Below, piece by piece: positions 30,946 to 52,526 of a stretch of 64,000 nt of DNA (the stretch's first letter is position 1; the number at the start of each line of letters is the position of its first letter). Made by a program: the position numbers and the translations under genes. Under the pieces are notes generated by a model. It did not search any database. It was not told where the DNA came from and saw only the letters and a program-made list of their open reading frames with translations. Source of the DNA: Deltaproteobacteria bacterium (GTDB lineage Bacteria; Myxococcota; Myxococcia; SLRQ01). The DNA is taken from assembly GCA_029210625.1 (NCBI GenBank), contig JARGFU010000007.1, forward strand, positions 91,742 through 155,741, in the 5' to 3' direction.

Positions 30946-30974
30946 GTGGGACGGGGCCGGGGGAGGAGGCGACG

Positions 30975-33013: not shown

Positions 33014-33035
33014 GGAGGGATCCCCGGCCTGATTT

Positions 33036-33176
33036 CCCCCGTGATTCCGGGGGTCTGGTGGGGTGATGGAACCATGACCGGGTGGCTATCGCCATCGCGG
33101 GGGCGCGATGGTAAACACCCCCCCTCGTGCATCCCGTCAGGGGGCCAGGCGGGGCGCTTTTCCGGGCAGAGCCCGG
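33036..33176 (+). promoter_or_regulatory. Leader/intergenic region with three hairpins before the pfa-ole operon
   Basis: Three perfect stem-loops: CCCCCG-TGATTC-CGGGGG (33036-33053), CCATCGCG-GGGG-CGCGATGG (33092-33111) and CCGGGC-AGA-GCCCGG (33162-33176). The first may end the upstream cyclase operon. The other two lie between it and the ATG at 33234 and could be operator or leader structures of the seven-gene operon. No convincing -35/-10 pair was found. Confidence 0.4.
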
Positions 33177-33233
33177 GGGGCACCGTCCGCCGCGCGCCTC
33201 GCTGACCAGCCCGAATCCTGGGGAGCTCACATC

Positions 33234-34847
33234 ATGCGACCGACCGTGACCGGCAGCCCGACGCGCCCCGCCGCCGAGACCCGCTCGGCGGAGACCCTCG
33301 CCGAGGTGCTGCCCCGGATCGACCGGGCCTACGCCGTGCTGCCTCCCCGGGCGGACGGGGCGCGGCCCGTGCGCCCCTGGTCGGGCCCGGCCGGGGACGA
33401 GGCCCCGGTGGCCATCCTCCCGGCGGCCCCGCTCTCGCAGCTCGGTGATCCGGCCTTCTGCGCGGCCCACGGCCTGCGCCTCCCCTACGTGGGCGGCGCC
33501 ATGGCCCACGGCATCTCCTCGGTGGAGCTGGTCGTGGCGCTCGGGCGCGCCGGCCTGCTCGGCGTCTTCGGCGCCGCCGGCCTGCCCCTCGCCCGGGTGG
33601 AGGCCGCCCTCGACGCCCTCGAGGCCGCGAGAGGGGAGGGGAGCTTCCCCTTCGCGATGAACCTCATCCACAGCCCCTCCGAGCCCTCCATCGAGCAGGG
33701 CGCGGTCGACCTCTACCTGCGCCGCGGCGTGCGCCTGGTGGAGGCGTCGGCCTACCTGCGGCTGAACCTGCAGGTGGTGCGCTACCGCCTCAAGGGGCTG
33801 CACCGGGACGCCGCCGGCCGGGTCGTGGCCCCCAACAAGATCATCGCGAAGGTCTCCCGGGTCGAGGTCGCCGAGGGCTTCCTCGGGCCGGCCCCGGAGC
33901 GGCTCGTGAACGAGCTCTTGCGGCGCGGCGACATCAGCGCCGAGGAGGCCGAGCTCTCGCGGCACGTGCCGGTGGCCACGGACCTCACCGTCGAGGCGGA
34001 CTCCGGCGGGCACACCGACAACCGGCCCCTGGTGACCCTCCTGCCGACCATGATCGCCCTGCGGGACCGGCTGCAGGCCGAGCATGGCTTCCCCGAGCCG
34101 GTGCGGATCGGCGCCGGCGGCGGCATCGCCACCCCCGCCTCGGCGGCCGCGGCCTTCGCGATGGGCGCCGCCTATCTGGTCGTCGGCTCGGTGAACCAGG
34201 CCTGCCGCGAGTCCGGGACCTCGGACCTGGTCCGGCAGCTCCTGGCCGAGACCCGGCAGGCCGACATCACGATGGCGCCGGCGGCGGACATGTTCGAGAT
34301 GGGCGTGAAGGTGCAGGTGCTCAAGCGCGGCACCCTCTTCGCGCAGCGGGCGAACAAGCTCTACGAGCTCTACCGCAAGCACGAGAGCCTGGACGCCCTC
34401 CCGCCGAAGGAGCGCGAGGAGCTGGAGCGGAAGGTCTTCCGCCTCCCGCTCACCCAGGTCTGGGAGGAGACCCGGCGCTTCTTCGCCGAGCGCGACCCCT
34501 CCCAGCTCGAGCGCGCCGAGACCGACCCCAAGCACCAGCTGGCCCTGACCTTCCGCTGGTACCTGGGCCAGAGCTCCTTCTGGGCCAAGGCCGGCCTCGA
34601 GGAGCGGCGGGTGGACCTGCAGATCTGGTGCGGCCCCGCCATGGGCGCCTTCAACGAGTGGACCCGGGGGAGCTTCCTCGAGGCCGCCGCCGCCCGCGAC
34701 GTCGTGACCGTCGCCCACAACCTCCTCCACGGGGCCGCCCTCCTCGCCCGCGTCCACGCGCTGGCGATCCAGGGGGTGCGCCTGCCGGCCGGCGCCGTGG
34801 ACACCTCTCCGAAGACCCTCTCGCAGCTCGAGGAGCAGCTTTCGTGA
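33234..34847 (+). CDS. pfaD: PfaD-type enoyl reductase of PUFA synthase
   Basis: 537 residues, close to the family size. It is the trans-acting FMN-dependent enoyl reductase of polyunsaturated fatty acid synthases: nitronate monooxygenase-like barrel with AHGISSVELVVALGRAGLLGVFGAAGL, IHSPSEPS, PVATDLTVEADSGGHTDN and VRIGAGGGIATPASAAAAF. The ATG at 33234 has GGGGAG 10 bases upstream. An upstream extension in frame runs through the hairpin leader and is rejected. The gene is first in the operon, as in myxobacterial pfa1-pfa2-pfa3, and overlaps the next by four bases (GTGA). Confidence 0.93.
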   Translation: MRPTVTGSPTRPAAETRSAETLAEVLPRIDRAYAVLPPRADGARPVRPWSGPAGDEAPVAILPAAPLSQLGDPAFCAAHGLRLPYVGGAMAHGISSVELVVALGRAGLLGVFGAAGLPLARVEAALDALEAARGEGSFPFAMNLIHSPSEPSIEQGAVDLYLRRGVRLVEASAYLRLNLQVVRYRLKGLHRDAAGRVVAPNKIIAKVSRVEVAEGFLGPAPERLVNELLRRGDISAEEAELSRHVPVATDLTVEADSGGHTDNRPLVTLLPTMIALRDRLQAEHGFPEPVRIGAGGGIATPASAAAAFAMGAAYLVVGSVNQACRESGTSDLVRQLLAETRQADITMAPAADMFEMGVKVQVLKRGTLFAQRANKLYELYRKHESLDALPPKEREELERKVFRLPLTQVWEETRRFFAERDPSQLERAETDPKHQLALTFRWYLGQSSFWAKAGLEERRVDLQIWCGPAMGAFNEWTRGSFLEAAAARDVVTVAHNLLHGAALLARVHALAIQGVRLPAGAVDTSPKTLSQLEEQLS

Positions 34848-37800
34848 AGCACCCCGTCGCCATCGTCGGAATCGGCTGCATCTTCCCGGACGCCCCGGAC
34901 TTCGCCCGCTACTGGGCGAACATCAAGCGGGGCCACGACGCCATCCGCGAGATCCCCGAGGGCCACTGGCCCGTCGAGGACTACTTCCGCGACGCGCCGG
35001 CGCCGGACCTCACCTACGCGCGGCGCGGCGGCTTCATCCCGCCCACCGACTTCGATCCCCTCGCCTTCGGCATCGTGCCGGACAACCTCGAGGCCACGGA
35101 CACGACCCAGCTCCTCGGGATGCTCGTCGCCCAGAAGGCCCTCGAGGACGCGGGCTTCGATCCGGCCGAGGAGGACACCGAGAAGGTGAGCGTGGTGCTG
35201 GGCGTCACCGGCACCCTGCCCCTGGTCATCCCCCTGGGCGCCCGGCTCGGGCACCCCATCTGGCGCAAGGCCCTGAAGGACGCGGGCGTCGAGGGCGAGC
35301 TCGCCGAGGACGTGGTGCAGCGGATCTCCGACGCCTACGTGCCCTGGAAGGAGAACTCCTTCCCCGGGCTGCTGGGCAACGTGGTGGCCGGCCGCATCGC
35401 CAACCGCCTCGACCTCCACGGCACCAACTGCGTGGTGGACGCGGCCTGCGCCTCGTCGCTCTCGGCGGCGCACCTCGCGGCGATGGAGCTGGAGAGCGGC
35501 CGGGCGGACCTGGTGGTCACCGGCGGCCTCGACACCTTCAACGACATCTTCATGTACATGTGCTTCAGCCAGACGCCGGCGCTCTCGCCCAGCGGCGACT
35601 CGCGGCCCTTCGACCGCGACGGCGACGGCACGATCCTCGGCGAGGGGCTGGGCATCGTGGTGCTCAAGCGCCTGGAGGACGCCGAGCGGGACGGCGACCG
35701 CATCTACGCCCTCATCAAGGCCGTGGGCTCGTCCAGCGACGGGCAGGGCCAGGCCATCTACGCGCCGAGCGCCGCGGGGCAGGCCCGCGCCCTGCGCAAG
35801 GCCTACTCGGCGGCCGGCGTCGGCCCCGAGACCGTGGAGCTCGTCGAGAGCCACGGCACCGGCACCAAGGTCGGCGACGCCATCGAGGCCACCGCGCTCT
35901 CCGAGGTCTTCCGGGAGGCCCGCGCCGAGGGGACCTGGTGCGCCCTGGGCTCGGTGAAGTCGCAGATCGGGCACACCAAGGCCGCCGCCGGCGCCGCCGG
36001 GCTCATCAAGGCCGCGCTGGCCCTCCACCACCGGGTGCTGCCGCCCACCATCAAGGTCGAGCAGCCCCTGGAGATGCTGGCCGCCGGCAAGACCCCCTTC
36101 TACGTGAACACCCAGCAGCGCCCCTGGCTGCCCGCGGCCGCCGGCCACCCGCGCCGGGCGGCGGTGAGCGCCCTGGGCTTCGGGGGCAGCAACTTCCACG
36201 TCGTCCTCGAGGAGTACCCCGACAGCCACCCGGGCATCGACTGGACGGGCACCGTGCAGATCGTGCCCTTCTCGGCGAGCAGCCGCGAGCAGCTCCTGGC
36301 CGCCCTCGACGGCTGGGAGAAGCTCTCCTGCTGGACCGACCGGCGGGTCTGGGCCGGCGCCCTGCGCGCCAGCTTCGATCCCGGCGCGCCCCTGCGCCTG
36401 GCCTTCGTCGCCAGCGCCGAGCCCGGGGACGACGAGGTCGATCTGGAGCGCGTGCGCCGCCACCTCGGGGACGAGAGCAAGACCAGCTTCACCACCCCCG
36501 ACGGCGCCTGCTTCGAGGCGCGCGCGGGCGAGGCGCCCGGCCGCCTGGCCTTCCTCTTCCCGGGGCAGGGCGCCCAGTACCCCGGGATGCTGCGGGATCT
36601 GGCCTGCGCCTTCCCCCAGCTCCAGGAGAGCCTGGCCGCCGCCGACGCCGCCCTGGAGCTCGGCGGAGCGCGCCTCGTCGATCGCATCTACCCCCACTCG
36701 ATCTTCGACGCCGAGGCCCGGGCCGAGTCGGTGGCGGCGCTGCGCGCCACCGAGGTCGCCCAGCCCGCCCTGGGCGCGGTGAGCCTGGGAGCCCTCGAGC
36801 TCCTGCGGCACTTCGGGCTCTCGCCCGACGCGGTGGCCGGCCACTCCTACGGCGAGCTGGTCGCGCTCACCGCCGCCGGCGTGATCGACCCGGCCGATCT
36901 GCCGGCCCTCTCGCGGCTGCGCGGCGAGCTGATGGCGGGGATGGCCGAGGGCGACGCGGGCACGATGCTCGCGGCCTCCTGCGAGCTGCCGAGGCTCGAG
37001 GCGATCCTCGCCGAGGCCGGCCTGGAGGTGGTCGTCGCCAACCGCAACACCCCCACCCAGAACGTCCTCTCGGGGAGCCGGAAGGCCATCGAGGCCGCCG
37101 AGGCCCTGCTGGTCACGAAGGAGATCCCCGTGACCCGGCTGGAGGTGGCCGCCGCCTTCCACAGCCCGCTGGTCGCGGGCGCCGAGGGTCCCCTGCGCGA
37201 GGCCCTCGATGGCCGCCCCTTCGGCGAGCCCGGCCTGCCGGTCTGGGCCAACACCACCGCGCGACCCTACCCCCCGGAGGCCGACGCGGCGCGGGCGCTC
37301 CTCGCCGGGCAGCTGGCCCGGCCGGTGGAGTTCTGCGCGACCCTCGAGGGCCTCCACGCCGAGGGCGTGCGCACCTTCGTCGAGGTGGGCCCGGGCGCCC
37401 GCCTCTCTGGCATGGTGCAGAAGACCCTGCAGGACCCGGACGTGCAGGCCCTCGCCCTCGACGCCTCCTCCGGGCGCCGCAACGGCCTGATCGATCTCGG
37501 CCGCCTCCTCGCCCGCCTCGCCGTGCTCGGCCACGAGCTCGAGCTCGAGCGCTGGGATCCCGAGGCCATCGGCTCCAAGCCCGAGGCGCCCGCACGCAAG
37601 GGGCCGAAGATGTCGGTGCCCCTCTCGGGCGTGAACTACGTGAGCCCGCGCCCCGCGCGTCCGCCGGCCACGCCTCGCCCCGTCTTGGCGCCGGCGACCG
37701 CCGCGCCCGCGCCCGCGCCGGCCGCGCTTCCCTCCTCCGCGCCCGTCGTCGGGACTTCGTCCCGCCCAACGGCGGCGCCCATCGCCTTCACCGAGCAGGT

Positions 37801-40800
37801 ACGCCCGATGTCCGACGATCCCCGCCACGCCGCGCTCAACGCGAACCTCCAGGCGCTGCTGCAGATGCAGTCCCAGACCGCCGACCTCCACCGCCTCTTC
37901 CTCGAGGGGCAGGAGGCCGCCACCGCAACCTTCCGGGACCTGATCCTGCGCCAGCAGGGCCTGATCACCGGGCAGGCGGTGGAGCCGCTCGCCCTCTCCA
38001 CCGGCCACGGCCTCCCGGCGCTGGCGGCGGTGGCCGCGCCGGCGATCGTGGCCGCCCCGCAGCCCGTGCCGGCGCCCGCGCTGGCGCCCGCCCCCGTGGC
38101 CCAGCCCGAGCCCGCGCTCACGGCCGTGGCCCCGGCGCCGGCTGCCGGCGTCGAGCTGGCCCCGGCCCTGCTGGAGATCGTCTCCGAGCGCACCGGCTAC
38201 CCCGTCGAGGTCCTCGAGCTCGACATGGATCTCGACACCGATCTGGGCATCGACTCCATCAAGCGGGTGGAGATCCTCTCGGCCCTGCAGGCAAAGCTGC
38301 CCGGGCTGGCCGCGCCCGATCCCGAGGCCCTGGGCCAGCTGCGCACCCTGGGCGAGATCGTCGCCTTCATGCAGGACGCCCCGGCGCCCGCGCCCGCCGC
38401 CGCGCCCCTGGCGGGGGCCGCGCCCTCCGCGGCCGACCTGCCCGGCGACGGCTCGGTGATCTCCGCCGCGCTCCTCGAGGTGGTCTCGGAGAAGACCGGC
38501 TATCCGGTGGAGGTCCTCGAGCTGGACATGGACCTCGACACCGATCTGGGCATCGACTCCATCAAGCGGGTGGAGATCCTCTCGGCCCTCCAGGCCCGGC
38601 ACCCCGAGCTGCCGGCCCCGGATCCCGAACAGCTCGCCGAGCTTCGCACCCTCGGCAGCATCGTCTCCTTCCTCTACGGCGCCGCCGAGGGGGTGCCCGC
38701 GGCCGCCCCGGCGCCCGCGGCGAAGGCCCCCGTCACCCCCGCGGCGCCCGCCGCCGCGCCGGCCGCCGGACCGCGGCCGCTCTACCGGGCCGAGCTGGCG
38801 AGCGCGCCCCTCGGCTCCGAGGCCGGAGCCCTGAGCCTCCCCGCGGGGACGGTGGTGCTCATCGATGGGGGCGACGCCCTGGGCGAGGCGCTGGCCCTGG
38901 CCCTGCGGGCGCGCGGCAGCGAGACCCTGCGCCTGGGCTGGCGCGAGGTGGAGGGGGCCGCCCTGCCCGGGCAGGTGGCCGGCCTCCTCCTCCTGCCGCC
39001 CCTCACCCTCGAGGCCGAGGCCGAGCTGGAGCTCTTCCAGGCGGCGCTGCGCGGCCTGCAGCGGGTCCGCCCCCTGCTCTCCACCGGCGCGCTCCTCTCC
39101 TCCCTCTCCCGGATGGACGGCCACCTCGGCCTCGCCGGGACGGCCTCCGCCGACGCCGTGACCGGCGGTGCCCTCGCGGGCCTGATCAAGACCGCCGGGC
39201 TGGAGTGGGAGGGCTGCCAGGCGCGGGTGCTCGATCTCGATCCCGAGCTGGCCGTCTCGGCCGGCGCGATCCTGGACGCGCTCCTCGCCGCCGGCCCGGT
39301 CGAGCGCGGCCTCTCGGCCGAGGGGCTGCGGGGCCTGGTCCTGCACGAGGCCGAGGTGCCCGCCGGCGGCCACCGCTTCGGGCGCGAGGATCGCGTGCTC
39401 CTCACCGGCGGCGCCCGGGGGGTCACCGCCGCCGCCGCCCTGGCGCTGGCCGAGGCCAGCCAGGCGACCCTCTTCCTCCTGGGCCGCAGCCCGGCCCCCG
39501 CGGCCGAGCCCGAGTGGCTCGCGGCCCTCGCCGACGAGGCCGCGATCAAGCGCGCCCTCCTCGAGCGGGGTGGCGGGCAGAGCGGCGCCCTCGCCGCCAT
39601 CGAGCAGGAGTGCCAGGCCATCCTCCGCGACCGGGAGATCCGGGAGAACCTGCGGCGGATCGAGGCCGCGGGCTCGCGGGTGATCTACCGCTCGGTGGAT
39701 CTGCGGGACGCGGCGGCCCTCGCGGCCGTCCTCGCCGAGCTCGGCGCCGAGCACGGCGCCCCCACCGCCGTCGTCCACGGCGCCGGCGTGCTGGCCGACG
39801 GCCACCTCGACGAGAAGCGCGCCGAGGGGCTGGCGGCCGTCGTCACCACCAAGCTCACCGGCTGGCGCAACCTGCGCGCCGCGCTGGAGGGCGCGCCCCT
39901 GAAGGCCCTGGTCTTCTTCTCCTCCACCACCGCGCGGGTGGGGCGCCGGGGCCAGGCGGACTACGCCCTGGCCAACGAGGCCCTCGACAAGCTCGCCCAC
40001 GTGGAGCGGGCCGCCCGCCCCGGGACCCGCGTCGTCTCCATCGGCTGGGGGCCCTGGGAGGGCGGCATGGTCACCCCCTCCCTGGCCCGCCTCTTCGCCG
40101 CCGAGGGCGTGCCGCTGATCCCGCTGCCGGCGGGCGCGCGGCTGCTGGTCGACGAGCTGCAGGCGCCCCCCGAGGCCGCGGCGCAGACCGTGGTGCTCGG
40201 CGGCCCGGTCGACCAGCCGGGCCTCGCCCCCGCGCCCCGGAGCGCCGCCGCGCCGGCCGCCGGGGCCGAGCACCTGGCCTTCGAGATCGGCCTCGAGCCC
40301 GAGCGCCAGCCCTTCCTCTCCGACCACGTCATCGCCGGTCAGGCGGTGCTGCCCCTGGCCCTCTCGGCGGAGTGGCTGGCTCAGGCCGCGCTCCACGAGC
40401 AGCCCGGCCTCGAGCTGATCGGGATCGACGGGCTGCGCCTCTTCAAGGGCGTGCGCCTCGGCGCCGGCGAGCGCCGGGCGCTGGAGCTGCGCTTCGGTGC
40501 GGCGCGAGGCGAGGCGGGGCTGCTGCGCCTCCCCGCGCGCCTGCAGGAGCGGGGCGAGCGCCCCAACGTGCAGGCCGAGGTGCTGCTCGGCGACGCGGCG
40601 CAGCGGCAGGAGCCGCCCCGGCTCCTCACGCTGCCCGCCCGGCGGATCGCCTCGGGCCTCGCCGCCGAGCCCGCGGCGCTCTACCGCACCCTCTTCCACG
40701 GCAACGCCCTGCGCTGCCTCGAGTCCCTCGAGGCGCACACCGAGCAGCAGATCGTCGCCCGCATCCGCCGCGCGCCGCAGCCGGCCGAGTGGCTGGAGGC

Positions 40801-41149
40801 TCCGCTGCGCGGCAGCTGGCTCACCGATCCCCTGGCCCTCGACGCCGCCTTCCAGCTGGGCATCCTCTGGTCGGTGGCCGCCCGGGGCGAGCCCTGCCTG
40901 CCCGCCGCGGTCGCCACCTACCGCCAGAAGGTCAGCCGCTTCCCCGAGACGATGCTGCTCCTGGGCGAGGTCGAGTCCCTCGAGGGGCAGACCCTGAAGA
41001 TGGCCTTCGACTGGCGCTCGATCGAGGGTGAGCTCCTGGCCTGGATGCGCGGCGCCGAGATGATCCTCGACCCGGCCCTCACCCGGGCCTTCGAGGAGCG
41101 GAGCCTCGCGCCCCGGACCGGCCCGGAAGTGCGGATCGAGCAGCGTTGA
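34844..41149 (+). CDS. pfaA: PfaA-like PUFA synthase: KS-AT-ACP-ACP-KR-DH
   Basis: 2101 residues, GTG start overlapping the pfaD stop. Domains: ketosynthase (1-440; Cys202, His337, His377), malonyl-type acyltransferase (about 560-880; GHSYGE Ser668), a Pro/Ala linker, two nearly identical acyl carrier domains (LGIDSIKRVE, Ser1138 and Ser1239), ketoreductase (GGARGVTAAA near 1520, catalytic Tyr1707) and a C-terminal hot-dog dehydratase-like domain (about 1805-2095; LSDHVIAGQAVLP). It extends the chain by malonyl units and reduces the keto group. Two ACPs is fewer than the five or more of most marine enzymes. Phosphopantetheinyl transferase is not in the window. Confidence 0.93.
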   Translation: MKHPVAIVGIGCIFPDAPDFARYWANIKRGHDAIREIPEGHWPVEDYFRDAPAPDLTYARRGGFIPPTDFDPLAFGIVPDNLEATDTTQLLGMLVAQKALEDAGFDPAEEDTEKVSVVLGVTGTLPLVIPLGARLGHPIWRKALKDAGVEGELAEDVVQRISDAYVPWKENSFPGLLGNVVAGRIANRLDLHGTNCVVDAACASSLSAAHLAAMELESGRADLVVTGGLDTFNDIFMYMCFSQTPALSPSGDSRPFDRDGDGTILGEGLGIVVLKRLEDAERDGDRIYALIKAVGSSSDGQGQAIYAPSAAGQARALRKAYSAAGVGPETVELVESHGTGTKVGDAIEATALSEVFREARAEGTWCALGSVKSQIGHTKAAAGAAGLIKAALALHHRVLPPTIKVEQPLEMLAAGKTPFYVNTQQRPWLPAAAGHPRRAAVSALGFGGSNFHVVLEEYPDSHPGIDWTGTVQIVPFSASSREQLLAALDGWEKLSCWTDRRVWAGALRASFDPGAPLRLAFVASAEPGDDEVDLERVRRHLGDESKTSFTTPDGACFEARAGEAPGRLAFLFPGQGAQYPGMLRDLACAFPQLQESLAAADAALELGGARLVDRIYPHSIFDAEARAESVAALRATEVAQPALGAVSLGALELLRHFGLSPDAVAGHSYGELVALTAAGVIDPADLPALSRLRGELMAGMAEGDAGTMLAASCELPRLEAILAEAGLEVVVANRNTPTQNVLSGSRKAIEAAEALLVTKEIPVTRLEVAAAFHSPLVAGAEGPLREALDGRPFGEPGLPVWANTTARPYPPEADAARALLAGQLARPVEFCATLEGLHAEGVRTFVEVGPGARLSGMVQKTLQDPDVQALALDASSGRRNGLIDLGRLLARLAVLGHELELERWDPEAIGSKPEAPARKGPKMSVPLSGVNYVSPRPARPPATPRPVLAPATAAPAPAPAALPSSAPVVGTSSRPTAAPIAFTEQVRPMSDDPRHAALNANLQALLQMQSQTADLHRLFLEGQEAATATFRDLILRQQGLITGQAVEPLALSTGHGLPALAAVAAPAIVAAPQPVPAPALAPAPVAQPEPALTAVAPAPAAGVELAPALLEIVSERTGYPVEVLELDMDLDTDLGIDSIKRVEILSALQAKLPGLAAPDPEALGQLRTLGEIVAFMQDAPAPAPAAAPLAGAAPSAADLPGDGSVISAALLEVVSEKTGYPVEVLELDMDLDTDLGIDSIKRVEILSALQARHPELPAPDPEQLAELRTLGSIVSFLYGAAEGVPAAAPAPAAKAPVTPAAPAAAPAAGPRPLYRAELASAPLGSEAGALSLPAGTVVLIDGGDALGEALALALRARGSETLRLGWREVEGAALPGQVAGLLLLPPLTLEAEAELELFQAALRGLQRVRPLLSTGALLSSLSRMDGHLGLAGTASADAVTGGALAGLIKTAGLEWEGCQARVLDLDPELAVSAGAILDALLAAGPVERGLSAEGLRGLVLHEAEVPAGGHRFGREDRVLLTGGARGVTAAAALALAEASQATLFLLGRSPAPAAEPEWLAALADEAAIKRALLERGGGQSGALAAIEQECQAILRDREIRENLRRIEAAGSRVIYRSVDLRDAAALAAVLAELGAEHGAPTAVVHGAGVLADGHLDEKRAEGLAAVVTTKLTGWRNLRAALEGAPLKALVFFSSTTARVGRRGQADYALANEALDKLAHVERAARPGTRVVSIGWGPWEGGMVTPSLARLFAAEGVPLIPLPAGARLLVDELQAPPEAAAQTVVLGGPVDQPGLAPAPRSAAAPAAGAEHLAFEIGLEPERQPFLSDHVIAGQAVLPLALSAEWLAQAALHEQPGLELIGIDGLRLFKGVRLGAGERRALELRFGAARGEAGLLRLPARLQERGERPNVQAEVLLGDAAQRQEPPRLLTLPARRIASGLAAEPAALYRTLFHGNALRCLESLEAHTEQQIVARIRRAPQPAEWLEAPLRGSWLTDPLALDAAFQLGILWSVAARGEPCLPAAVATYRQKVSRFPETMLLLGEVESLEGQTLKMAFDWRSIEGELLAWMRGAEMILDPALTRAFEERSLAPRTGPEVRIEQR
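38192..38595 (+). repeat. Direct repeat encoding two tandem ACP domains
   Basis: About 100 bases around each phosphopantetheine Ser codon (38194-38290 and 38497-38595) are near-identical, with the stretch from CTCGACACCGATCTGGGCAT through the helix II codons the same in both copies. Spacing is 303 bases (101 residues). It is a recent or gene-converted domain duplication. Confidence 0.85.
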
Positions 41150-44100: not shown

Positions 44101-47100
44101 GGGATGGGCCGCTGGGCCGGGCTGCGCTGGCCCCACCTCCTCGAGCCCGCCGCGGGCGAGGACGCGGCGAAGGCCGGCGGGATCAAGGGGCAGCTGCAGC
44201 CCCGCCTCTCCTGGCAGACCGAGCTGGCCGGGATGAACGCCGATCCGGCGGGGCTGATCCGCGCGCAGGTCGCCCTCGGGATCGCCCTGACCCGGCTGGT
44301 CGAGGGCTTCGGGCTGCGCCCCCGCCACGCCCTGGGCTACAGCCTGGGAGAGACCGCCGCCCTCTTCTCCCTCGGGGCCTGGACCGACCGCGCCGAGATG
44401 GCCCGGCGGATGCGGGAGACCCCGCTCTTCGTCGACCAGCTCTGCGGCGCGAACCTCGCGGCCCGCGAGCTCCTCGGCGAGCGCGAGCCCCTCGAGTGGG
44501 CGATGGCCGTCGTGCAGCGCGACCCCCTCTCCCTCAAGCTGCGCCTCGTGGACGAGGAGCGGGTCTTCCTCCTCATCGTCAACACCCCCGAGGAGTGCGT
44601 GATCGGCGGTGAGGCCCGGGCCGTCGCGGCCTTCGCCGGCCGGGAGGGCCTCGAGCTCCACCCCGTCGAGGGCGTGACCACCGTCCACTGTCCGGTGGTG
44701 CAGCCGGTGGGATCGGCCTACCGTGACCTGCACCTCCTGCCGACGACGCCGCCCGAGGGCGTGACCTTCTACAGCGGCGCCCGGGGCGAGCCCTACCGCG
44801 TCGATCGCGAGAGCGCCGCGGACGCCATCCTGGCCCAGGCTCTCGAGGGCATCGACTTCGCCGCCACGGTGGAGAGCGCCCACGCCGGAGGGGCGCGGCT
44901 CTTCCTGGAGATCGGACCGGGGGGCTCCTGCACCCGGATGATCTCCCGCACCCTCGCGGATCGGCCGCACGCCGCGGTGGCGCTCCACGTCGCCGGCCAG
45001 GATCCCGAGCGGACCCTGCTGCGGGCGCTGGCCCTGCTCCACGTGCACCGCGTGCCGCTGGATCTCTCTCCCCTCTTCGAGGGGCGGAGCGCGCCGCCGG
45101 TGAAGGACGAGCGCCCGGGGATGACCCTGAAGGTGGGTCTGGGGCCGATCGCAAGGGAGAAGACGGGGACGGAGACGGGGACGGAAAGGGCGAGGACTCC
45201 GATCGTCACGGAGATTCCGATGGCGACGGACGAGCCCCTGCCGCGCACGCGCACGAGCACCCGCACGCGCACGGTCGTTCCCGTCGAGCCCGCGCCACCG
45301 CCCCCGGTCCCGATGGCGTCCCCGGCCCCGTGGCCGGCCGCGCCGATGGATCCCATGCTCGCCGCCCTCGCCGACGCGGCGGCGCGCCGGGCGGAGGCCC
45401 ACCGCTTCTTCCTCGCGAGCAGTCAGGCGAACCTCCAGGCCCTCGGCCAGGGCTTCGCCCAGCTCGCCGGATCCGGGGACGTACACGTACACGTACACGA
45501 ACACGTCCACGGTCTCTCCCGGGTCGAGCCGGAGCAGCCCTCTCCCCGGGCTCCGCACCCGCTCTCGAGCGAGGTCCCCCGCAGCCTCGATCACGATCAG
45601 TGCATCCAGTTCGCCGTCGGCAAGATCGGCGAGGTCCTCGGCGCCCGCTTCGCCCACGTCGACGCCCACCCCACCCGGGTCCGCCTCCCTGAGGGACCCC
45701 TGATGCTGGTCGATCGGATCCCCCTCATCGAGGGTGAGCCGAACTCGATGCGGCCGGGGAGGGTGCTCACCGAGCACACCGTCCACCCGGGGCGCTGGTA
45801 CCTCGACGCCGGCCGGATCCCCACCGGGGTCTGCGTCGAGTCGGGGCAGGCCGACCTCTTCCTCTCGGGCTGGCTGGGCATCGACAGCGAGACGAGGGGA
45901 GAGGCGGTCTATCGCCTCCTCGACGCCAAGGTGACCTTCCACCGGGGCCTTCCGCGCTCCGGCGAGACGATCCTCCACGACATCCGCATCCTCGAGTTCT
46001 TCCAGCAGGCGGGCAGCTGGTTCTTCCGCTTCGAGTACGACTCGACCATCGAGGGCGAGCCGGTCCTGACGATGCGCGACGGCCTCGCGGGCTTCTTCAC
46101 CGACGCCGCCCTCGCGGCGGGCGAGGGGCTGAAGGCCTCCCGCCTGGACCTGGAGCAGCGCCGGCCCCGGCCGGCCCCCGAGCTGCCCGCCGCCGCGCCT
46201 CCGATCCGGGGCGAGGCCTGGGACGGGGCCGCCCTCGACGCCCTCGAGCGGGGCGACCTCGGGGCCGCCTTCGGCGGCGCCTTCGCCTCCCTCGGCCTGC
46301 GCGCGCCGACCCGGCTGCCCGGCGGTAAGCTGCGCCTGGTCGACGCCATCACCGAGGCCGACGAGTCCGGTGGGTGGTACGGGCGCGGCCGGATCGTCGC
46401 CACCCGCGCCATCCACCCCGACGACTGGTTCCTCACCTGCCACTTCGTGGACGACCAGGTGATGCCCGGCACCCTGATGTACGAGAGCGCCCTGCAGGCC
46501 CTGCGGGTCTTCCTGATGCGCAAGGGCTGGGTGGGCGAGCAGGGCGCGGTGGTCTTCGAGCCGGTGCCCGGCGTGCAGAGCGTGCTCAAGTGCCGGGGGC
46601 AGGTCGTCGCCAGCACCCGCGAGGCCACCTACGAGGTGCAGGTGAAGGAGCTCGCCGTCGAGCCCGGCCGCCCGCCCCACGCCCTGGCCGACGTGATCAT
46701 GTACGCCGACGGCCGGCCCATCGTGGAGATCGTCGATATGTCGCTGCAGGCCACCGGCCTCGACCGGGACGCCCTAGTGGCGCTCTGGGGCGCCCACCCG
46801 GCCGAGCCGGCGACCCTCTACGGACCCGAGCAGATCCGCGCCTACGCCGAGGGCCGCCCCTCCGAGGGCTTCGGCGAGCCCTACCGGATCTTCGACGAGG
46901 AGCGCCGCATCGCCCGCCTGCCCCGCGACCCCTACCTCTTCATGGACCGGGTCACCCGGGTGAAGGGGGCGCCCTTCGTCTTCGAGAAGGGCGCCGAGGT
47001 CGACGCCGAGGTCGCGGTGGATCCGGCGGCCTGGTACTTCCGCGACGGCCGCCAACCCACCCTGCCCTTCGCGGTGCTCCTGGAGATCGCCCTGCAGCCC

Positions 47101-47880
47101 TGCGGCTGGCTGGCGGCCTACGTGGGCTCGGCGCTGCAGAGCGCGACCGACCTGCACTTCCGCAACCTCGGCGGCGAGGCCCGCCACCACCGGCTCGTCA
47201 CCGCCGAGACCGGGCTGCTCTACACCCGCACCCGCCTCACCGATCTCTCGAAGTCGGGGGACACGATCATCCAGCACTTCGCCTTCGAGGTGCTCGATGC
47301 CCAGGGGCCGGTCTACACCGGCACCACCTACTTCGGCTTCTTCACCGGCGCGGCCCTCGCCAACCAGGTCGGGCTGCGCGGCAAGTCGCTCCACGATCTC
47401 TCGGCGCTCCCCGCCGCCGCCTCGTCCGCGCTCGACGGGCCGGGCCTGCCGGTCGGGATGCTGCGGATGATGGACGCCGTCGATCACCTCTCCCGCGAGG
47501 GCGGCCCCCACGGGCACGGCGGGGTGCAGGGGAGCAAGACCATCGATCCCGCCGAGTGGTTCTTCCAGGCGCACTTCTACCAGGACCCGGTCTGGCCCGG
47601 CTCGCTGGGCATCGAGGCCTTCCTCCAGCTCCTGATGGCCGCCGGGGCCGAGCGCTGGGGCGCCCGCCGCTTCACGCCCGTGCTCGGCGCGGATCACCGC
47701 TGGAGCTACCGCGGCCAGGTCATCCCCGCCGACCAGAAGGTCATCGTCCAGACCGTGCCGACGGCGATCGACGACACCACCCGAACCATGAAGGCCGACG
47801 GCTTCCTGGCGGTGGACGGCCGCCTGATCTACGAGATGAAGGACTTCGCCCTCCGCTGCGATCCCGAGGAGACCCCATGA
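41146..47880 (+). CDS. pfaC: PfaC-like PUFA synthase: KS-CLF-AT-DH-DH
   Basis: 2244 residues, TTG start overlapping the previous stop (TTGA); a GTG at 41155 is an alternative. Domains: ketosynthase (1-440; Cys184, His318, His358), chain-length factor (about 455-830) whose active-site Cys is replaced (SSEESS, 626-631), acyltransferase (about 970-1290; GYSLGE Ser1066), a low-complexity linker (about 1320-1480) and four hot-dog folds forming two FabA-like dehydratase/isomerase units (about 1515-2240). This matches myxobacterial Pfa3, including the AT that takes the place of separate PfaB, but the C-terminal acylglycerolphosphate acyltransferase reported for some Pfa3 proteins is absent. It ends four bases into oleA. 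Confidence 0.92.
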   Translation: MKRVDPIAVVGLGGRFPDARDVAAFWELVRAGRSAVREVPAGRWVIPPARALATEEGAQPDRVTSARACFLEDEHLELEGLALSDELVELLPGLDPMFRIGLAAARDAWLDCRREDLDPQRVDVVLGNIALPTETTSRLAVEVLGGKRRPSVHPLNRFVVGLPAGLIARALGLGGDQLALDAACASSLFAVALACERLWSRRADAVLAGGIGRPDSLYTHMGFSQLRALSPDGRCAPFDRRGNGLVMGEGAGVFVLKRLEDALRAGDRIRGLIRGVGLSNDTDGKLLSPSSEGQLRAMRAAYRQAGWSPSSVELIECHATGTPVGDATELRSLRALWEDAGGDARRCIIGSVKSNVGHLLTGAGAAGMMKALQALEHRTLPPTANFEEGLADLADSPFEVLRRAEPWAAPIGGGARRAAVSGFGFGGTNAHLLLEEWRAEDGPAAGLVAPAPAPRARPAVAIVGLGGRFGPWAGREALTERLLGLATPGEPPAPGPHAWADEGLDRPGHYLEAIEVAFGAFRIPPTELKEMLPQQLLMLVAAAEALAQAGGPGEEGLTTGAYLGIGLDLNTTTYHARWVALEQGAEAAARVGPPLTPDRTMGALGGIVASRIAREFGLGGPCFVLSSEESSALSALELAVRALQRGEIDRALAGAVDLAGDVRVQALPLPGQEPAVVGEGAGAVVLRRLEDALAAGEEVLAVIEGVGSASGGGLLEGSPEPETFLRAARRARADAAGDEALPVDLLELVRGGVPTRARQELIGWLEEGRDREGDALTLVRASERVGESGAASGMAGLLRAVLSLHHRILPADAEGAARPWLRDAQGPPRRAAISAHSVDGKVVHVLLREGERRSPTLEPRPATLARETLLLLSADDRPSLAAALRSLAGELSREPLLEVARRAAARQQAEPGRFGLALVARDGEEGHGLATLALAVLEDPSRSEAALESELMLGSRGRITCTFSPLGGDPEALAFVYPGSGNHFPGMGRWAGLRWPHLLEPAAGEDAAKAGGIKGQLQPRLSWQTELAGMNADPAGLIRAQVALGIALTRLVEGFGLRPRHALGYSLGETAALFSLGAWTDRAEMARRMRETPLFVDQLCGANLAARELLGEREPLEWAMAVVQRDPLSLKLRLVDEERVFLLIVNTPEECVIGGEARAVAAFAGREGLELHPVEGVTTVHCPVVQPVGSAYRDLHLLPTTPPEGVTFYSGARGEPYRVDRESAADAILAQALEGIDFAATVESAHAGGARLFLEIGPGGSCTRMISRTLADRPHAAVALHVAGQDPERTLLRALALLHVHRVPLDLSPLFEGRSAPPVKDERPGMTLKVGLGPIAREKTGTETGTERARTPIVTEIPMATDEPLPRTRTSTRTRTVVPVEPAPPPPVPMASPAPWPAAPMDPMLAALADAAARRAEAHRFFLASSQANLQALGQGFAQLAGSGDVHVHVHEHVHGLSRVEPEQPSPRAPHPLSSEVPRSLDHDQCIQFAVGKIGEVLGARFAHVDAHPTRVRLPEGPLMLVDRIPLIEGEPNSMRPGRVLTEHTVHPGRWYLDAGRIPTGVCVESGQADLFLSGWLGIDSETRGEAVYRLLDAKVTFHRGLPRSGETILHDIRILEFFQQAGSWFFRFEYDSTIEGEPVLTMRDGLAGFFTDAALAAGEGLKASRLDLEQRRPRPAPELPAAAPPIRGEAWDGAALDALERGDLGAAFGGAFASLGLRAPTRLPGGKLRLVDAITEADESGGWYGRGRIVATRAIHPDDWFLTCHFVDDQVMPGTLMYESALQALRVFLMRKGWVGEQGAVVFEPVPGVQSVLKCRGQVVASTREATYEVQVKELAVEPGRPPHALADVIMYADGRPIVEIVDMSLQATGLDRDALVALWGAHPAEPATLYGPEQIRAYAEGRPSEGFGEPYRIFDEERRIARLPRDPYLFMDRVTRVKGAPFVFEKGAEVDAEVAVDPAAWYFRDGRQPTLPFAVLLEIALQPCGWLAAYVGSALQSATDLHFRNLGGEARHHRLVTAETGLLYTRTRLTDLSKSGDTIIQHFAFEVLDAQGPVYTGTTYFGFFTGAALANQVGLRGKSLHDLSALPAAASSALDGPGLPVGMLRMMDAVDHLSREGGPHGHGGVQGSKTIDPAEWFFQAHFYQDPVWPGSLGIEAFLQLLMAAGAERWGARRFTPVLGADHRWSYRGQVIPADQKVIVQTVPTAIDDTTRTMKADGFLAVDGRLIYEMKDFALRCDPEETP
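45480..45515 (+). repeat. Short tandem ACGTAC-type repeat in the pfaC linker
   Basis: GTACAC is repeated three times and continues with close variants (GAACAC, GTCCAC), encoding alternating Val-His (VHVHVHEHVHG). Other simple stretches, Arg-Thr (45241-45280) and Gly-Thr/Glu-Thr (45160-45190), lie just before. They mark the flexible AT-DH linker and are slippage-prone. Confidence 0.7.
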
Positions 47881-48953
47881 GGTACGAGCGGGTCTTCCTC
47901 GACACCCTGGCCTTCGAGCTGGCGCCGATGGTGGTGAGCACCGCCGAGCTGGAGGACCGCCTGGCGCCGGCCTTCCGGCGCCTCCACATCCAGCCCGGGC
48001 AGGTCGAGGCCCTCACCGGCATCCGCGAGCGCCGCTTCTGGGCGCCGGGCACGAAGGTCAGCGAGGGCGCCATCAAGGCCGCCCGCCGGGCGCTGGCCGA
48101 CTCGCCGGTGAGCCCGGAGGACCTCGGGGCCCTGATCTTCGCCGGCGTCTGCCGGGACGAGTACGAGCCGGCGACCGCCACCCACGTCGCCGCCGAGATC
48201 GGCGTGCACCCCCGGGCGATGGTCTACGACCTCTCCAACGCCTGCCTCGGCGTGCTCAACGGCATCCTCGACCTGGCCAACCGGATCGAGCTCGGCCAGA
48301 TCCGCGCCGGGATGGTGGTCTCCTGCGAGTCCGCCCGGGAGATCGTCGACGAGATGATCTCCGCGATGCTGGCGCAGGAGGACCCCGACCTCGTCGTCCC
48401 CGGTGAGGTCGAGAAGTCTCTCGACGCCTTCCGGCTCGGACTGGCGACCCTCACCGGCGGCTCGGGCGCCATCGCGGTGATCGTCACCGACGGCTCCTTC
48501 GCGCCGAAGCGGCGGCGGCTGGTCGGCGGCGTGAACCGCAACGCGCCGGAGCACCACCTGCTCTGCCGCTGGGGCGTGGAGAAGATCGACGCCGAGACCT
48601 ACCGCCCCTACATGCGCACCGACTCGGTGAAGGTGCTCGAGCACGGGGTGGCCCTCGGGCGGGAGACCTTCCGCGACTTCCTGGCCGAGCTCTCCTGGAC
48701 CCAGGAGGCCATCGACCGGGTCATCTGCCACCAGGTGGGCGCGGCGCACCAGGCGCAGATCCTCAAGACCCTGGAGATCCCGCCCGAGAAGGACTTCGCC
48801 ACCTACGGGCACCTCGGGAACATGGGCACCGTCGCCCTGCCCGCGGCGGCGGCCCTCGCCGAGCGGCGGGGCTTCCTCGCCCCCGGTCAGCGGGTGGCCT
48901 TCCTGGGCATCGGCTCCGGCCTCAACTGCACCATGCTGGGGATCGAGTGGTGA
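47877..48953 (+). CDS. oleA: OleA: thiolase-like head-to-head acyl-CoA condensing enzyme
   Basis: 358 residues, ATG overlapping the pfaC stop (ATGA). KASIII/thiolase fold with SNACLG nucleophile Cys123, His285 in CHQVG and Asn315 in GNMGT. Glu97 sits 26 residues before the Cys, the same spacing as Glu117-Cys143 of Xanthomonas OleA, the glutamate that reaches into the partner's active site and separates OleA from FabH. OleA joins two acyl-CoAs (or acyl groups) into a beta-keto acid. Position next to the PUFA synthase suggests that polyunsaturated chains are used; that is inference. Confidence 0.92.
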   Translation: MRYERVFLDTLAFELAPMVVSTAELEDRLAPAFRRLHIQPGQVEALTGIRERRFWAPGTKVSEGAIKAARRALADSPVSPEDLGALIFAGVCRDEYEPATATHVAAEIGVHPRAMVYDLSNACLGVLNGILDLANRIELGQIRAGMVVSCESAREIVDEMISAMLAQEDPDLVVPGEVEKSLDAFRLGLATLTGGSGAIAVIVTDGSFAPKRRRLVGGVNRNAPEHHLLCRWGVEKIDAETYRPYMRTDSVKVLEHGVALGRETFRDFLAELSWTQEAIDRVICHQVGAAHQAQILKTLEIPPEKDFATYGHLGNMGTVALPAAAALAERRGFLAPGQRVAFLGIGSGLNCTMLGIEW

Positions 48954-49852
48954 GAGACTACCCCTTCGAGTCGAACTTCCTTCCCCGCCCCGGCGGCCGC
49001 CTCCACTACCTCGACGAGGGGCCGAAGGACGCGCCGCCGGTGCTGATGGTCCACGGTAACCCGACCTGGTCCTACTACTACCGGCACCTGGTGCTCGCCC
49101 TGCGCGAGAGCCACCGGGTGATCGTGCCCGACCACCTCGGCTGCGGGCTCTCGGACAAGCCGGCCGAGGGCGAGTACCCCTTCACCCTCGAGGCGCGCAT
49201 CGCCGACCTCGAGGCGCTGATGGAGCAGCTCGAGCCCCTGCGGCCGGTGAAGCTCGTCGTCCACGACTGGGGTGGGATGATCGGCAGCGGCTGGGCCACC
49301 CGCCACCCCGAGCGGGTGGAGCGGCTGGTCGTGCTCAACACCGCCGCCTTCCACCGGCCGGCGGGCAAGGCCATCCCCTGGCAGCTGAAGCTGGTGCGGG
49401 AGACCCCCTTCGGCGGCCTGCTGGTGCGGGGCTTCAACGCCTTCGCCCGCGGGGCCGTGCGCTCCTGCGTCACCGAGACGACCCTCGACGCCGAGACCCG
49501 GGAGGCCTACCTCGCCCCCTACGGCTCCTGGCAGGACCGCCTGGCGGTGCTGCGCTTCGTCGAGGACATCCCGCTGAAGCGCTCGCACCCCTCCTACGAC
49601 ACGGTGACCGAGGTCGAGGCGCGCCTGCCGGCGCTGCTGGAGAAGCCGATGCGGATCTACTGGGGGATGCGGGACTTCGTCTTCGACGGCGACTACCTGG
49701 CCGAGTGGGAGCGCCGCTTCCCCCGCGCCGAGGTCCACCGCTTCGAGGCGGCGGGCCACTACGTCCTCGAGGACCGGCGCGAGGCCATCGTCGCGGGCGT
49801 GAGGGAGTTCTTCGGGGCCGGCGCGCCGGCAGTGCAGGAGGCCACCTCGTGA
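48950..49852 (+). CDS. oleB: OleB: alpha/beta hydrolase, beta-lactone decarboxylase
   Basis: 300 residues, GTG at 48950 overlapping the oleA stop (GTGA); GTG at 48947 would add one residue. Haloalkane dehalogenase-like alpha/beta hydrolase: HGNPTWSYYYRHL oxyanion region, nucleophile Asp106 in VVHDWGGM, and His270 in AGHYVLED. An Asp nucleophile, not Ser, is the OleB pattern. OleB removes CO2 from the beta-lactone made by OleC to give a cis-olefin. It acts in a multi-protein assembly with OleC and OleD. Confidence 0.9.
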   Translation: MRDYPFESNFLPRPGGRLHYLDEGPKDAPPVLMVHGNPTWSYYYRHLVLALRESHRVIVPDHLGCGLSDKPAEGEYPFTLEARIADLEALMEQLEPLRPVKLVVHDWGGMIGSGWATRHPERVERLVVLNTAAFHRPAGKAIPWQLKLVRETPFGGLLVRGFNAFARGAVRSCVTETTLDAETREAYLAPYGSWQDRLAVLRFVEDIPLKRSHPSYDTVTEVEARLPALLEKPMRIYWGMRDFVFDGDYLAEWERRFPRAEVHRFEAAGHYVLEDRREAIVAGVREFFGAGAPAVQEATS

Positions 49853-51537
49853 ACGTCCGCATCCTCAAGTTCCCGAAGTTCCCCAGCCCCAACGTCGCCA
49901 GCCACCTGCCGCGGATGGCGGCCATCCAGCCGGAGCGGGTGGCGGTGGCGGTGGCCCGCGGCCGGGCGGTGGACGGCTCGCGCCGCTACGATCGGCTGAC
50001 CTTCGCCGAGCTAGACGACGAGTGCGACCGGCTGGCCTGGGGGCTGCAGGCCGTGGGCCTCTCGCGGGGGCAGCGGGTGGTGCTGATGGTCCCGCCCAGC
50101 CTGGAGTTCTTCACCCTCACCTTCGCCCTCTTCAAGATCGGCGCGGTGCCGGTGCTGGTCGATCCGGGCATGGGCCTGCCCTCCCTGAAGAAGTGCCTGG
50201 AGGAGGCCGAGCCCCGCGCCTTCATCGGCACGACCAAGGCCCACCTCGCGCGGACCCTCTTCGGCTGGGCCCCCGGCGCCGACCGCCTCGTCACCGTCGG
50301 GCCCCGCCTCTTCTGGGGCGGCAAGACCCTGGAGCAGGTGCGGGCCGCCGGGCGGGCCCTTCCCCATCAGGTCGCCGACGTGGAGCCCTCCGAGACCGCG
50401 GCGATCCTCTTCACCAGCGGCAGCACCGGTGTCCCCAAGGGCGCCGTCTACCGCCACGAGGTCTTCGCCGCTCAGGTCGAGATGCTCCGCAGCCTCTACG
50501 GCATCCGGCCCGGCGAGATGGATCTGGCCACCTTCCCCCTCTTCGCCCTCTTCGGTCCGGCGCTGGGGATGAGCGCCATCGTCCCGGAGATGGACGCCTC
50601 GAAGCCGGGCTCGGCCGATCCCGAGAAGCTGGTCGCGGCCATCGAGGACTTCGGCTGCACCAACATGTTCGGCTCTCCGGCGCTGGTGGATCGCCTCTCC
50701 CGCCACGGCGAGCGCCTGGGGTTGAAGCTGCCGACCCTGAAGCGCGTGCTCTCGGCCGGCGCCCCCGTCCGCGGCGAGGTGCTGGCCCGGATGCAGGGGC
50801 TGCTCTCCGAGGGCGCCCAGGTCTTCACCCCCTACGGCGCGACCGAGGTCCTGCCGGTCTGCTCCATCGGCTCCGACGAGCTGCAGGCCACCCTCGAGGC
50901 GACGGGGGAGGGCGCCGGGGTCTGCGTCGGGCGGCCCGCCGAGGGCAACGAGCTGAAGATCATCCGCATCGACGACGGCCCCATCGAGCGCTGGAGCGAC
51001 GAGCTGGAGCTGCCGGCGGGCGAGATCGGCGAGATCGTGGTGCGCGGCCCCACCGTCACCCACGCCTACCACGGGCGCCCGGAGTCCACGGCGCTGGCGA
51101 AGATCAGCGACGGCGCGCGCGAATCGCGCTACCCGATCTGGCACCGGATGGGCGACCTCGGCCGCCTCGACGAGGAGGGGCGGCTCTGGTTCCAGGGCCG
51201 CAAGGCCCACCGGGTCGTGCTCCCCGGGGGCACGCTCTTCACCGTGCCCTGCGAGCGGGTCTTCGACACCCACCCCGCGGTGCGCCGCACGGCCCTGGTC
51301 GGCATCGAGCGCGAGGGCGCGCGGCAGCCGGTGATCTGCGTCGAGCTCGAGCCGGGGATCGGCCGCGGGCAGCACGCGCGGATCACCGCCGAGCTGCGCC
51401 GGCTGGGCGCGTGGCGCGCGCACACCCGAAAGATCGAGCGCTTCCTCTTCCACCCGGGCTTCCCGGTGGACGTGCGCCACAACGCGAAGATCTTCCGGGA
51501 GAAGCTCGCCCTCTGGGCTCAGGAGGTCGCGCCTTGA
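49849..51537 (+). CDS. oleC: OleC: AMP-forming beta-lactone synthetase
   Basis: 562 residues, GTG overlapping the oleB stop (GTGA). ANL-superfamily adenylate-forming enzyme: LFTSGSTGVPKGA near residue 189 (P-loop), YGATEVLP (about 330), then HRMGDLGRLDEEGRLWFQGR hinge. The C-terminal Lys-bearing subdomain is present (VRHNAKIFREKLA), though Lys sits in an HNAKI context. OleC adenylates the beta-hydroxy acid and closes the beta-lactone. Size matches characterised OleC proteins. Confidence 0.92.
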   Translation: MNVRILKFPKFPSPNVASHLPRMAAIQPERVAVAVARGRAVDGSRRYDRLTFAELDDECDRLAWGLQAVGLSRGQRVVLMVPPSLEFFTLTFALFKIGAVPVLVDPGMGLPSLKKCLEEAEPRAFIGTTKAHLARTLFGWAPGADRLVTVGPRLFWGGKTLEQVRAAGRALPHQVADVEPSETAAILFTSGSTGVPKGAVYRHEVFAAQVEMLRSLYGIRPGEMDLATFPLFALFGPALGMSAIVPEMDASKPGSADPEKLVAAIEDFGCTNMFGSPALVDRLSRHGERLGLKLPTLKRVLSAGAPVRGEVLARMQGLLSEGAQVFTPYGATEVLPVCSIGSDELQATLEATGEGAGVCVGRPAEGNELKIIRIDDGPIERWSDELELPAGEIGEIVVRGPTVTHAYHGRPESTALAKISDGARESRYPIWHRMGDLGRLDEEGRLWFQGRKAHRVVLPGGTLFTVPCERVFDTHPAVRRTALVGIEREGARQPVICVELEPGIGRGQHARITAELRRLGAWRAHTRKIERFLFHPGFPVDVRHNAKIFREKLALWAQEVAP

Positions 51538-52526
51538 GGGTCCTGGTCACCGGCGGCGGTGGCTTCATCGGCGGCGGCCTGGCCCGGCGCCTGGCGGAGG
51601 CCGGCGAGGCCGTCCGCACCTTCTCGCGGGGCGACTACCCGGAGCTGGCCCGGCTCGGCGTCGAGCAGCACCGGGGCGACCTCGGAGATCCCGAGGCGGT
51701 GGCGCGGGCGGTGGAGGGCTGCGAGCTGGTCTTCCACGTCGGCGCCAAGGCCGGGGTCTGGGGCGCGGCCGAGGACTTCCACCGCGCCAACGTCCTGGGC
51801 ACCCGCAACGTCCTCGACGCCTGCCGGCGCCACGGCGTGCGCAGGCTGGTCTTCACCTCCTCGCCCAGCGTGGTCTTCGACGGCGGTGACCTCGAGGGCA
51901 TCGACGAGTCGCAGCCCTACCCCGAGCGCTATCCCTCGCCCTATCCCGAGACCAAGGCCATCTCCGAGCGCGAGGTCCGCGCGGCGGCCAGCGAGGGGCT
52001 GATGACCGTCTCCCTGCGGCCCCACTCGGTCTGGGGGCCGGGGGATCCCCACTTCGTCCCTCGCATCGTCGAGCGGGCGCGGGCGGGGCAGCTGCGGCAG
52101 ATCGGCGACGACACCAAGCTGGTCGACAGCACCTACATCGACAACGTGGTCGACGCGCACCTGCTGGCGGCCGAGAAGCTCGGCCCCGAGCTCAACGGCA
52201 GGGTCTACTTCGTGAGTAACGGCGAGCCGCGGCCCACCTGGCAGCTCATCAACGCCATCGCCGTGGCCGCGGGCGCGCCGCCCATCGAGAAGAGGGTCCC
52301 CCGGGGCCTGGCCTACGCGGCCGGCTCGGTGGTGGAGGGGATCTGGAAGACCTTCGGGATCGCCTCCGAGCCGCGGATGACCCGCTTCCTGGTGAAGGAG
52401 CTGACCACCGCCCACTGGTTCGATCTGAGCGCGATCCGCCGGGATCTGGGCTATTCGCCGCGGATCAGCATCGACGAGGGGCTCCGGCGACTCTCCGTCT
52501 CGACCGATCGGTCCTCGACCCGATAG
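51534..52526 (+). CDS. oleD: OleD: NAD(P)H-dependent beta-keto acid reductase
   Basis: 330 residues, TTG overlapping the oleC stop (TTGA). Extended short-chain dehydrogenase: TGGGGFIGGGLARRL nucleotide loop (6-20), TSSPSVVFDGGDLEGIDES, and catalytic Tyr137 and Lys141 (YPETK). The SPSVVFDG stretch is typical of OleD and related sterol dehydrogenases. It reduces the OleA product to the beta-hydroxy acid for OleC. Last gene of the seven-gene run. The next gene begins 9 bases later and could still be on the same transcript. Confidence 0.92.
   Translation: MRVLVTGGGGFIGGGLARRLAEAGEAVRTFSRGDYPELARLGVEQHRGDLGDPEAVARAVEGCELVFHVGAKAGVWGAAEDFHRANVLGTRNVLDACRRHGVRRLVFTSSPSVVFDGGDLEGIDESQPYPERYPSPYPETKAISEREVRAAASEGLMTVSLRPHSVWGPGDPHFVPRIVERARAGQLRQIGDDTKLVDSTYIDNVVDAHLLAAEKLGPELNGRVYFVSNGEPRPTWQLINAIAVAAGAPPIEKRVPRGLAYAAGSVVEGIWKTFGIASEPRMTRFLVKELTTAHWFDLSAIRRDLGYSPRISIDEGLRRLSVSTDRSSTR

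Follow-up and report, generated by a model that had tools for sequence, protein, structure and literature searches.

A Seven-Gene pfa-ole Operon in a Member of the Myxococcota, Predicted To Direct Synthesis of a Polyunsaturated Hydrocarbon

Introduction

In Geobacter bemidjiensis, the genes for a polyunsaturated fatty acid (PUFA) synthase and for olefin synthesis lie in tandem, in the order pfaD-A-B-C-oleA-B-C-D-pfaE, and the organism makes hentriacontanonaene (C31:9), according to a review (PMC4882568). The ole genes are often linked to pfa clusters, and the Type I cluster has been suggested to be a feeder for olefin synthesis (PMC3098273). The Pfa synthase produces a 16:4 n-3 chain, OleA condenses it, and OleD, OleC, and OleB complete the olefin (PMC6463001). 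OleA joins the two pathways in vivo, and the OleA ketone is formed in a strain without the FadD acyl-CoA synthetase (PMC6463001). Since the legend of Figure 1 in that study states that pfaE may lie elsewhere, we regard pfaE at the operon end as a variable feature that does not define this kind of operon.

Other described systems share parts of this arrangement. In the Shewanella species that produce C31:9 (PMC6463001), pfa and ole are at separate loci, and the published systems have pfaA, pfaB, pfaC, and pfaD as individual genes. In Photobacterium profundum SS9, the two pathways are adjacent, forming two operons separated by the thioesterase gene pfaT, and hydrocarbon was not detected (PMC6463001); adjacency thus does not guarantee a product. 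Myxobacterial Type L clusters, from Aetherobacter and Minicystis (PMC6731297), start with pfaD, followed by pfaA and by a PfaC that contains an AT, and their final domain is an AGPAT that serves phospholipid transfer; Aetherobacter PfaC has such an AGPAT-type acyltransferase domain (PMC4882568), and its PPTase is encoded elsewhere. Finally, the Xanthomonas oleABCD system (OleA structure 3row) uses FAS chains and has no tie to pfa. Here, we describe a locus in a 64,000-nucleotide stretch of DNA from a member of the Myxococcota ("the window").

Results

Seven open reading frames occupy positions 33234-52526 of the window (+ strand), in the order pfaD, pfaA, pfaBC, oleA, oleB, oleC, oleD, with no intergenic gaps. 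The features are as follows.

33014..33233, +, noncoding leader, 220 bp, 5′ of pfaD; the sole intergenic gap
33234..34847, +, pfaD, FMN-dependent trans enoyl reductase (ER), 537 aa; GGGGAG precedes the ATG start
34844..41149, +, pfaA, KS-MAT-ACP-ACP-KR-DH, 2101 aa; GTG start within the pfaD stop (GTGA)
41146..47880, +, pfaBC fusion, KS-CLF-AT-FabA-type DH pairs, 2244 aa; TTG start (TTGA overlap)
47877..48953, +, oleA, thiolase for head-to-head Claisen condensation, 358 aa; overlaps pfaBC at ATGA
48947..49852, +, oleB, β-lactone decarboxylase with the haloalkane-dehalogenase fold, 301 aa; matches alpha/beta hydrolase models
49849..51537, +, oleC, olefin β-lactone synthetase, AMP-binding, 562 aa; GTGA overlap
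51534..52526, +, oleD, NAD(P)H-dependent 2-alkyl-3-oxoalkanoate reductase (SDR), 330 aa; TTGA overlap

Neighboring genes share 4 to 7 bp at each junction (junction types GTGA, TTGA, and ATGA), and the seven genes are probably transcribed as one unit. Reading frames and profile matches both agree with a first-pass annotation, in which a complete pfaD, pfaA, and pfaC-like set ran straight into oleABCD on the same strand and without gaps. The minus-strand reading frames across 33234-52526 look like GC-rich shadow frames. Using profile searches and the translations, we found all the expected domains and every catalytic motif that we looked for in the seven proteins.

PfaD matched TIGR02814 with 635 bits (cutoff, 449), and its best relative in the PDB was PfaD 6lkc (E = 3e-171). 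PfaA matched TIGR02813 (omega_3_PfaA) with 1366 bits (cutoff, 1010); its Pfam domains are KS, MAT, two ACPs, KR, and a C-terminal DH, and it carries two LGIDSIKRVEIL motifs. The third gene had been annotated as pfaC-like. It does encode the PfaC domains, but an AT lies between the CLF and the FabA-type DH domains, making it a pfaBC fusion; residues 972-1313 match the pfaB_fam model TIGR02816, below the cutoff, and the translated CLF lacks the catalytic Cys. Of the features of Pfa-type PUFA synthases, the three genes encode a PfaD ER, a PfaA with KS-MAT-tandem ACP-KR, and a KS-CLF with FabA-type dehydratase/isomerase and AT. A Pfam search of PfaBC did not detect the AGPAT domain (PF01553), so this trait of the myxobacterial Type L clusters is missing from the window protein. 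The earlier description of the PUFA synthase as complete holds for pfaD, pfaA, and pfaBC but not for pfaE: the operon includes no pfaE or other PPTase gene, and the gene following oleD encodes a DUF3280-like protein. Two Sfp-like candidate PPTase genes are present elsewhere in the genome: the first shares the contig of the operon, ~58 kb downstream of it, and the second is on a different contig. The operon also has no pfaT. At the thresholds used, the genome encodes one PfaD and one OleA.

OleA matched PRK09258 with 455 bits (cutoff, 285) and the Xanthomonas campestris OleA structures with an E value of 4e-56. It has the motifs NACLG, CRDEYEP, CHQVG, and GNMGT, with the Cys-His-Asn triad and the Glu; Cys123, His285, and Asn315 are invariant in our alignment of Myxococcota OleAs (A1). 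Compared with the other 11 OleAs in A1, the window protein has ~12 additional residues, which lie near residues ~166-180 (window positions 48370-48430). All three of oleB, oleC, and oleD adjoin oleA. OleB matched Abhydrolase and haloalkane-dehalogenase-type models and has the nucleophile elbow HDWGG. OleC, with the P-loop TSGSTGVPKG, matched PRK09274 with 752 bits (cutoff, 478) and the OlefBLtnSyn (olefin β-lactone synthetase) models with 725 and 675 bits (cutoffs, 900 and 850). OleD, with the motifs GGGGFIGG and YPETK, matched OleD models with 412 and 395 bits; every other family scored far lower, although the cutoff of 580 was not reached. Hence, OleC and OleD score strongly against Ole models yet fall under the strict equivalog cutoffs.

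Position alone points to the leader at 33014..33233, the one intergenic gap there, as the sole obvious site for a putative operon promoter. It had no Rfam match, and we therefore rejected an RNA regulator at this position; a promoter scan detected no sigma-70-like site in it, and a terminator scan yielded nothing useful. The region directly 5′ of the operon on the same strand (30115-33013, +) contains a gene for a cyclic-nucleotide-binding protein, a short gene (~30975-31694, +) whose product resembles, at its C terminus, a cyclase domain without its middle, and a gene for an intact class III nucleotide cyclase (31691-33013, +). These predicted functions make a link between the operon and cyclic nucleotides possible. 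Downstream, 52536-53531 (+) starts 9 bp past oleD; its product probably carries a signal peptide and weakly matches DUF3280/DUF2380. Immediately behind pfaC in another locus of the phylum, L041, where no ole genes are nearby, is a stretch related to this protein (37% over 92 aa; E = 1e-12). A large reading frame at 52544-59689 (+; start approximate) encodes Kelch repeats and bacterial Ig-like domains.

The first-pass annotation had proposed looking for pfaC-oleA adjacency in other Myxococcota, and had named an adjacency confined to one genome as a result that would count against it. We surveyed 195 genomes of the phylum with a match threshold of E = 1e-60 and detected OleA in 23 and PfaD in 48. 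The adjacency was found. Within the window's class, the order pfaD-pfaA-pfaBC-oleA-B-C-D was read in at least six other genomes (L027-L032), with oleD cut by the end of the stretch in L027 and L030 and L032 stopping within oleC. In six more (L052 and L054-L058), pfaC is followed by oleA, and the stretches or contigs break off within the genes upstream of pfaC or before reaching them. The sole genome of the same family in the sample (G164, 85% complete) had neither OleA nor PfaD at E = 1e-60. Other members of the phylum have a stand-alone OleA with no adjoining pfa cluster.

We also examined the 80 closest named OleA loci among 84,980 species genomes. In 50 of these, with some loci too short to tell, pfaC lies ≤2 kb upstream of oleA. 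The linked loci come from Geobacterales/Desulfuromonadales, Planctomycetota, Acidobacteriota, Verrucomicrobiota, and others; none of the gammaproteobacterial loci among the 80 has pfaC within 2 kb upstream. In all 10 named loci read at full length, the order is pfaD-pfaA-pfaC-oleA-oleB; wherever the stretch does not end too early, oleC and oleD follow, with the exception of L150, where neither gene was found within reach. The pfa-ole order, complete or continuing to the edge of the stretch, was seen in Geomonas, Pelotalea, Desulfuromonadaceae, Aquisphaera, other Planctomycetota, and Acidobacteriota. Many of the Geobacterales/Desulfuromonadales loci have a PPTase gene after oleD, which the window lacks. 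Linkage in the class genomes and in several phyla rules out an adjacency limited to one genome.

To place the window OleA, we built a tree of 103 rows by a quick method, with SH-aLRT and no bootstrap. The window protein falls in a clade of 94 rows (SH-aLRT, 100) that takes in all the linked OleAs together with those of Shewanella, Psychromonas, Moritella, Pseudoalteromonas, and the Geobacter type. Xanthomonas OleA and the stand-alone Myxococcota OleAs, save that of L059, are left out. PfaD is present in all 20 of the hosts tested from this clade. Membership of the clade, together with the presence of PfaD in these hosts, ties the window OleA to enzymes that condense Pfa-derived chains. Within the OleA tree, the window protein stands apart from its classmates with weak support, whereas a seven-protein tree places the window on the side of the Myxococcota operons with support of 99 and a very short branch. 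The place of the window within the clade is therefore uncertain, and we did not adopt the idea that the operon was recently acquired by horizontal transfer from a Geobacter-like organism.

Discussion

From the gene content and order, the intact motifs, the conservation, and the OleA clade, we conclude that the operon is very probably a polyunsaturated-hydrocarbon operon of the G. bemidjiensis kind. Like the window, G. bemidjiensis Bem, with the Type I pfa cluster of Shulse and Allen (PMC4882568, PMC3098273), has pfaD-A-(B)C-oleA-B-C-D, and the Type I cluster carries the AT with PfaC, as in the window's pfaBC fusion. This likeness to G. bemidjiensis is drawn from published descriptions; in sequence, proteins of the Geomonas and Pelotalea operons are ~45 to 60% identical to those of the window, and the Geobacter and Geomonas loci examined share its OleA clade. 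Window PfaA has two ACPs, compared with 3 to 5 in the Geobacterales/Desulfuromonadales PfaA proteins read. Shewanella has the same enzymes and the same OleA clade, with pfa and ole apart where the window has them joined, and separate pfa genes where the window has a pfaBC fusion. The loci are neighbors in P. profundum SS9, as in the window, which has no pfaT between them. The window resembles the Type L clusters in the order of pfaD, pfaA, and a PfaC with an internal AT, and, with its candidate PPTase genes elsewhere, it also resembles Aetherobacter, but it continues into oleABCD where Type L ends in AGPAT. With Xanthomonas it shares the OleA fold family and the four-step pathway, and not the OleA clade.

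In the proposed pathway, a PPTase encoded elsewhere would activate the PUFA synthase, and PfaA, PfaBC, and PfaD would iteratively assemble a methylene-interrupted polyunsaturated acyl chain on the PfaA ACPs. OleA would then join Pfa-made acyl chains head to head, OleD would reduce the β-keto acid, OleC would close the β-lactone, and OleB would decarboxylate it to the olefin, which would be placed in membranes. The line dedicated to polyunsaturated long-chain olefins that the first-pass annotation had proposed is well supported by the predicted domains, the conserved gene order, and the OleA clade. As to substrate, product, and chain length, we infer that the product is most likely hentriacontanonaene (C31:9) or a close relative.

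It is possible, though we favor it less than not, that the synthase supplies phospholipid PUFA as well as the hydrocarbon and that OleA competes for the chain as it grows, as happens in Shewanella strains that make both eicosapentaenoic acid (EPA) and C31:9. In Shewanella pealeana both products are made, and OleA lowers EPA (PMC6463001). Within the operon, no gene serves phospholipid transfer. A two-product synthase would be compatible with the assignment as a pfa-ole hydrocarbon operon, not exclusive of it. We consider it rather unlikely that the product of the Myxococcota operons is a polyunsaturated hydrocarbon that differs from C31:9 in length or unsaturation, with OleA as the sole off-loader and the PUFA synthase serving the hydrocarbon alone.

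Could the two gene sets be mere neighbors, with most of the PUFA made by pfa going into membrane phospholipids, as in Aetherobacter and Minicystis, and ole drawing on ordinary saturated or monounsaturated chains? Phospholipid PUFA is the product of the PUFA synthases of other myxobacteria (PMC6731297, PMC4882568), and the Xanthomonas-type Ole system takes FAS chains (PMC6463001). Against this stand the overlapping reading frames in the window, the linkage in at least six other class genomes and several phyla, and the place of the window OleA in the pfa-associated clade. The window PfaBC also lacks AGPAT, unlike the unlinked PfaCs of L038 and L042. This last point is supporting rather than decisive, since other unlinked PfaCs also lack the domain; L041, L047, and L048 have neither AGPAT nor adjacent ole genes, and we therefore rejected AGPAT loss as a clean marker of ole linkage. 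Taken together, we regard mere proximity as improbable. That the pathway ends at polyunsaturated ketones or β-lactones is very improbable: OleA alone yields a 31:8 ketone (PMC6463001) and the window OleB, OleC, and OleD diverge from the model proteins, but oleB, oleC, and oleD are all present with intact catalytic motifs, so such release is not expected.

The separate Shewanella loci that the first-pass annotation cited agree with the Shewanella loci that we examined. The novelty that it implied for the linkage did not survive: tandem operons have been published (PMC4882568, PMC3098273, PMC6463001) and are common in databases. In the literature searched, mostly non-subscription, we found no explicit report of a joined pfa-ole operon in Myxococcota, and we therefore regard the operon as a further taxonomic case of a known arrangement. 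With this operon, the known range of the hydrocarbon pathway reaches this phylum, beyond the marine gammaproteobacteria and Geobacter of the original descriptions; no new kind of system is opened. Among the close OleA relatives examined, joined pfa-ole is usual outside the Gammaproteobacteria, and Shewanella-style separation looks like a special case in this sample. The compact seven-gene operon could serve heterologous production.

Two further observations concern other members of the phylum. L059, from a small genome (G163; 2.7 Mb), has diverged oleA and oleC genes of the window's OleA clade, with no oleB, oleD, or pfa matches on the contig, perhaps reflecting decay or a β-lactone-type pathway. 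In L055 (1295-3228) and L056 (13397-15330), the operon is followed by a second, divergent OleA-like/OleD-like pair (32 to 35% identity), whose predicted products suggest a second condensation product.
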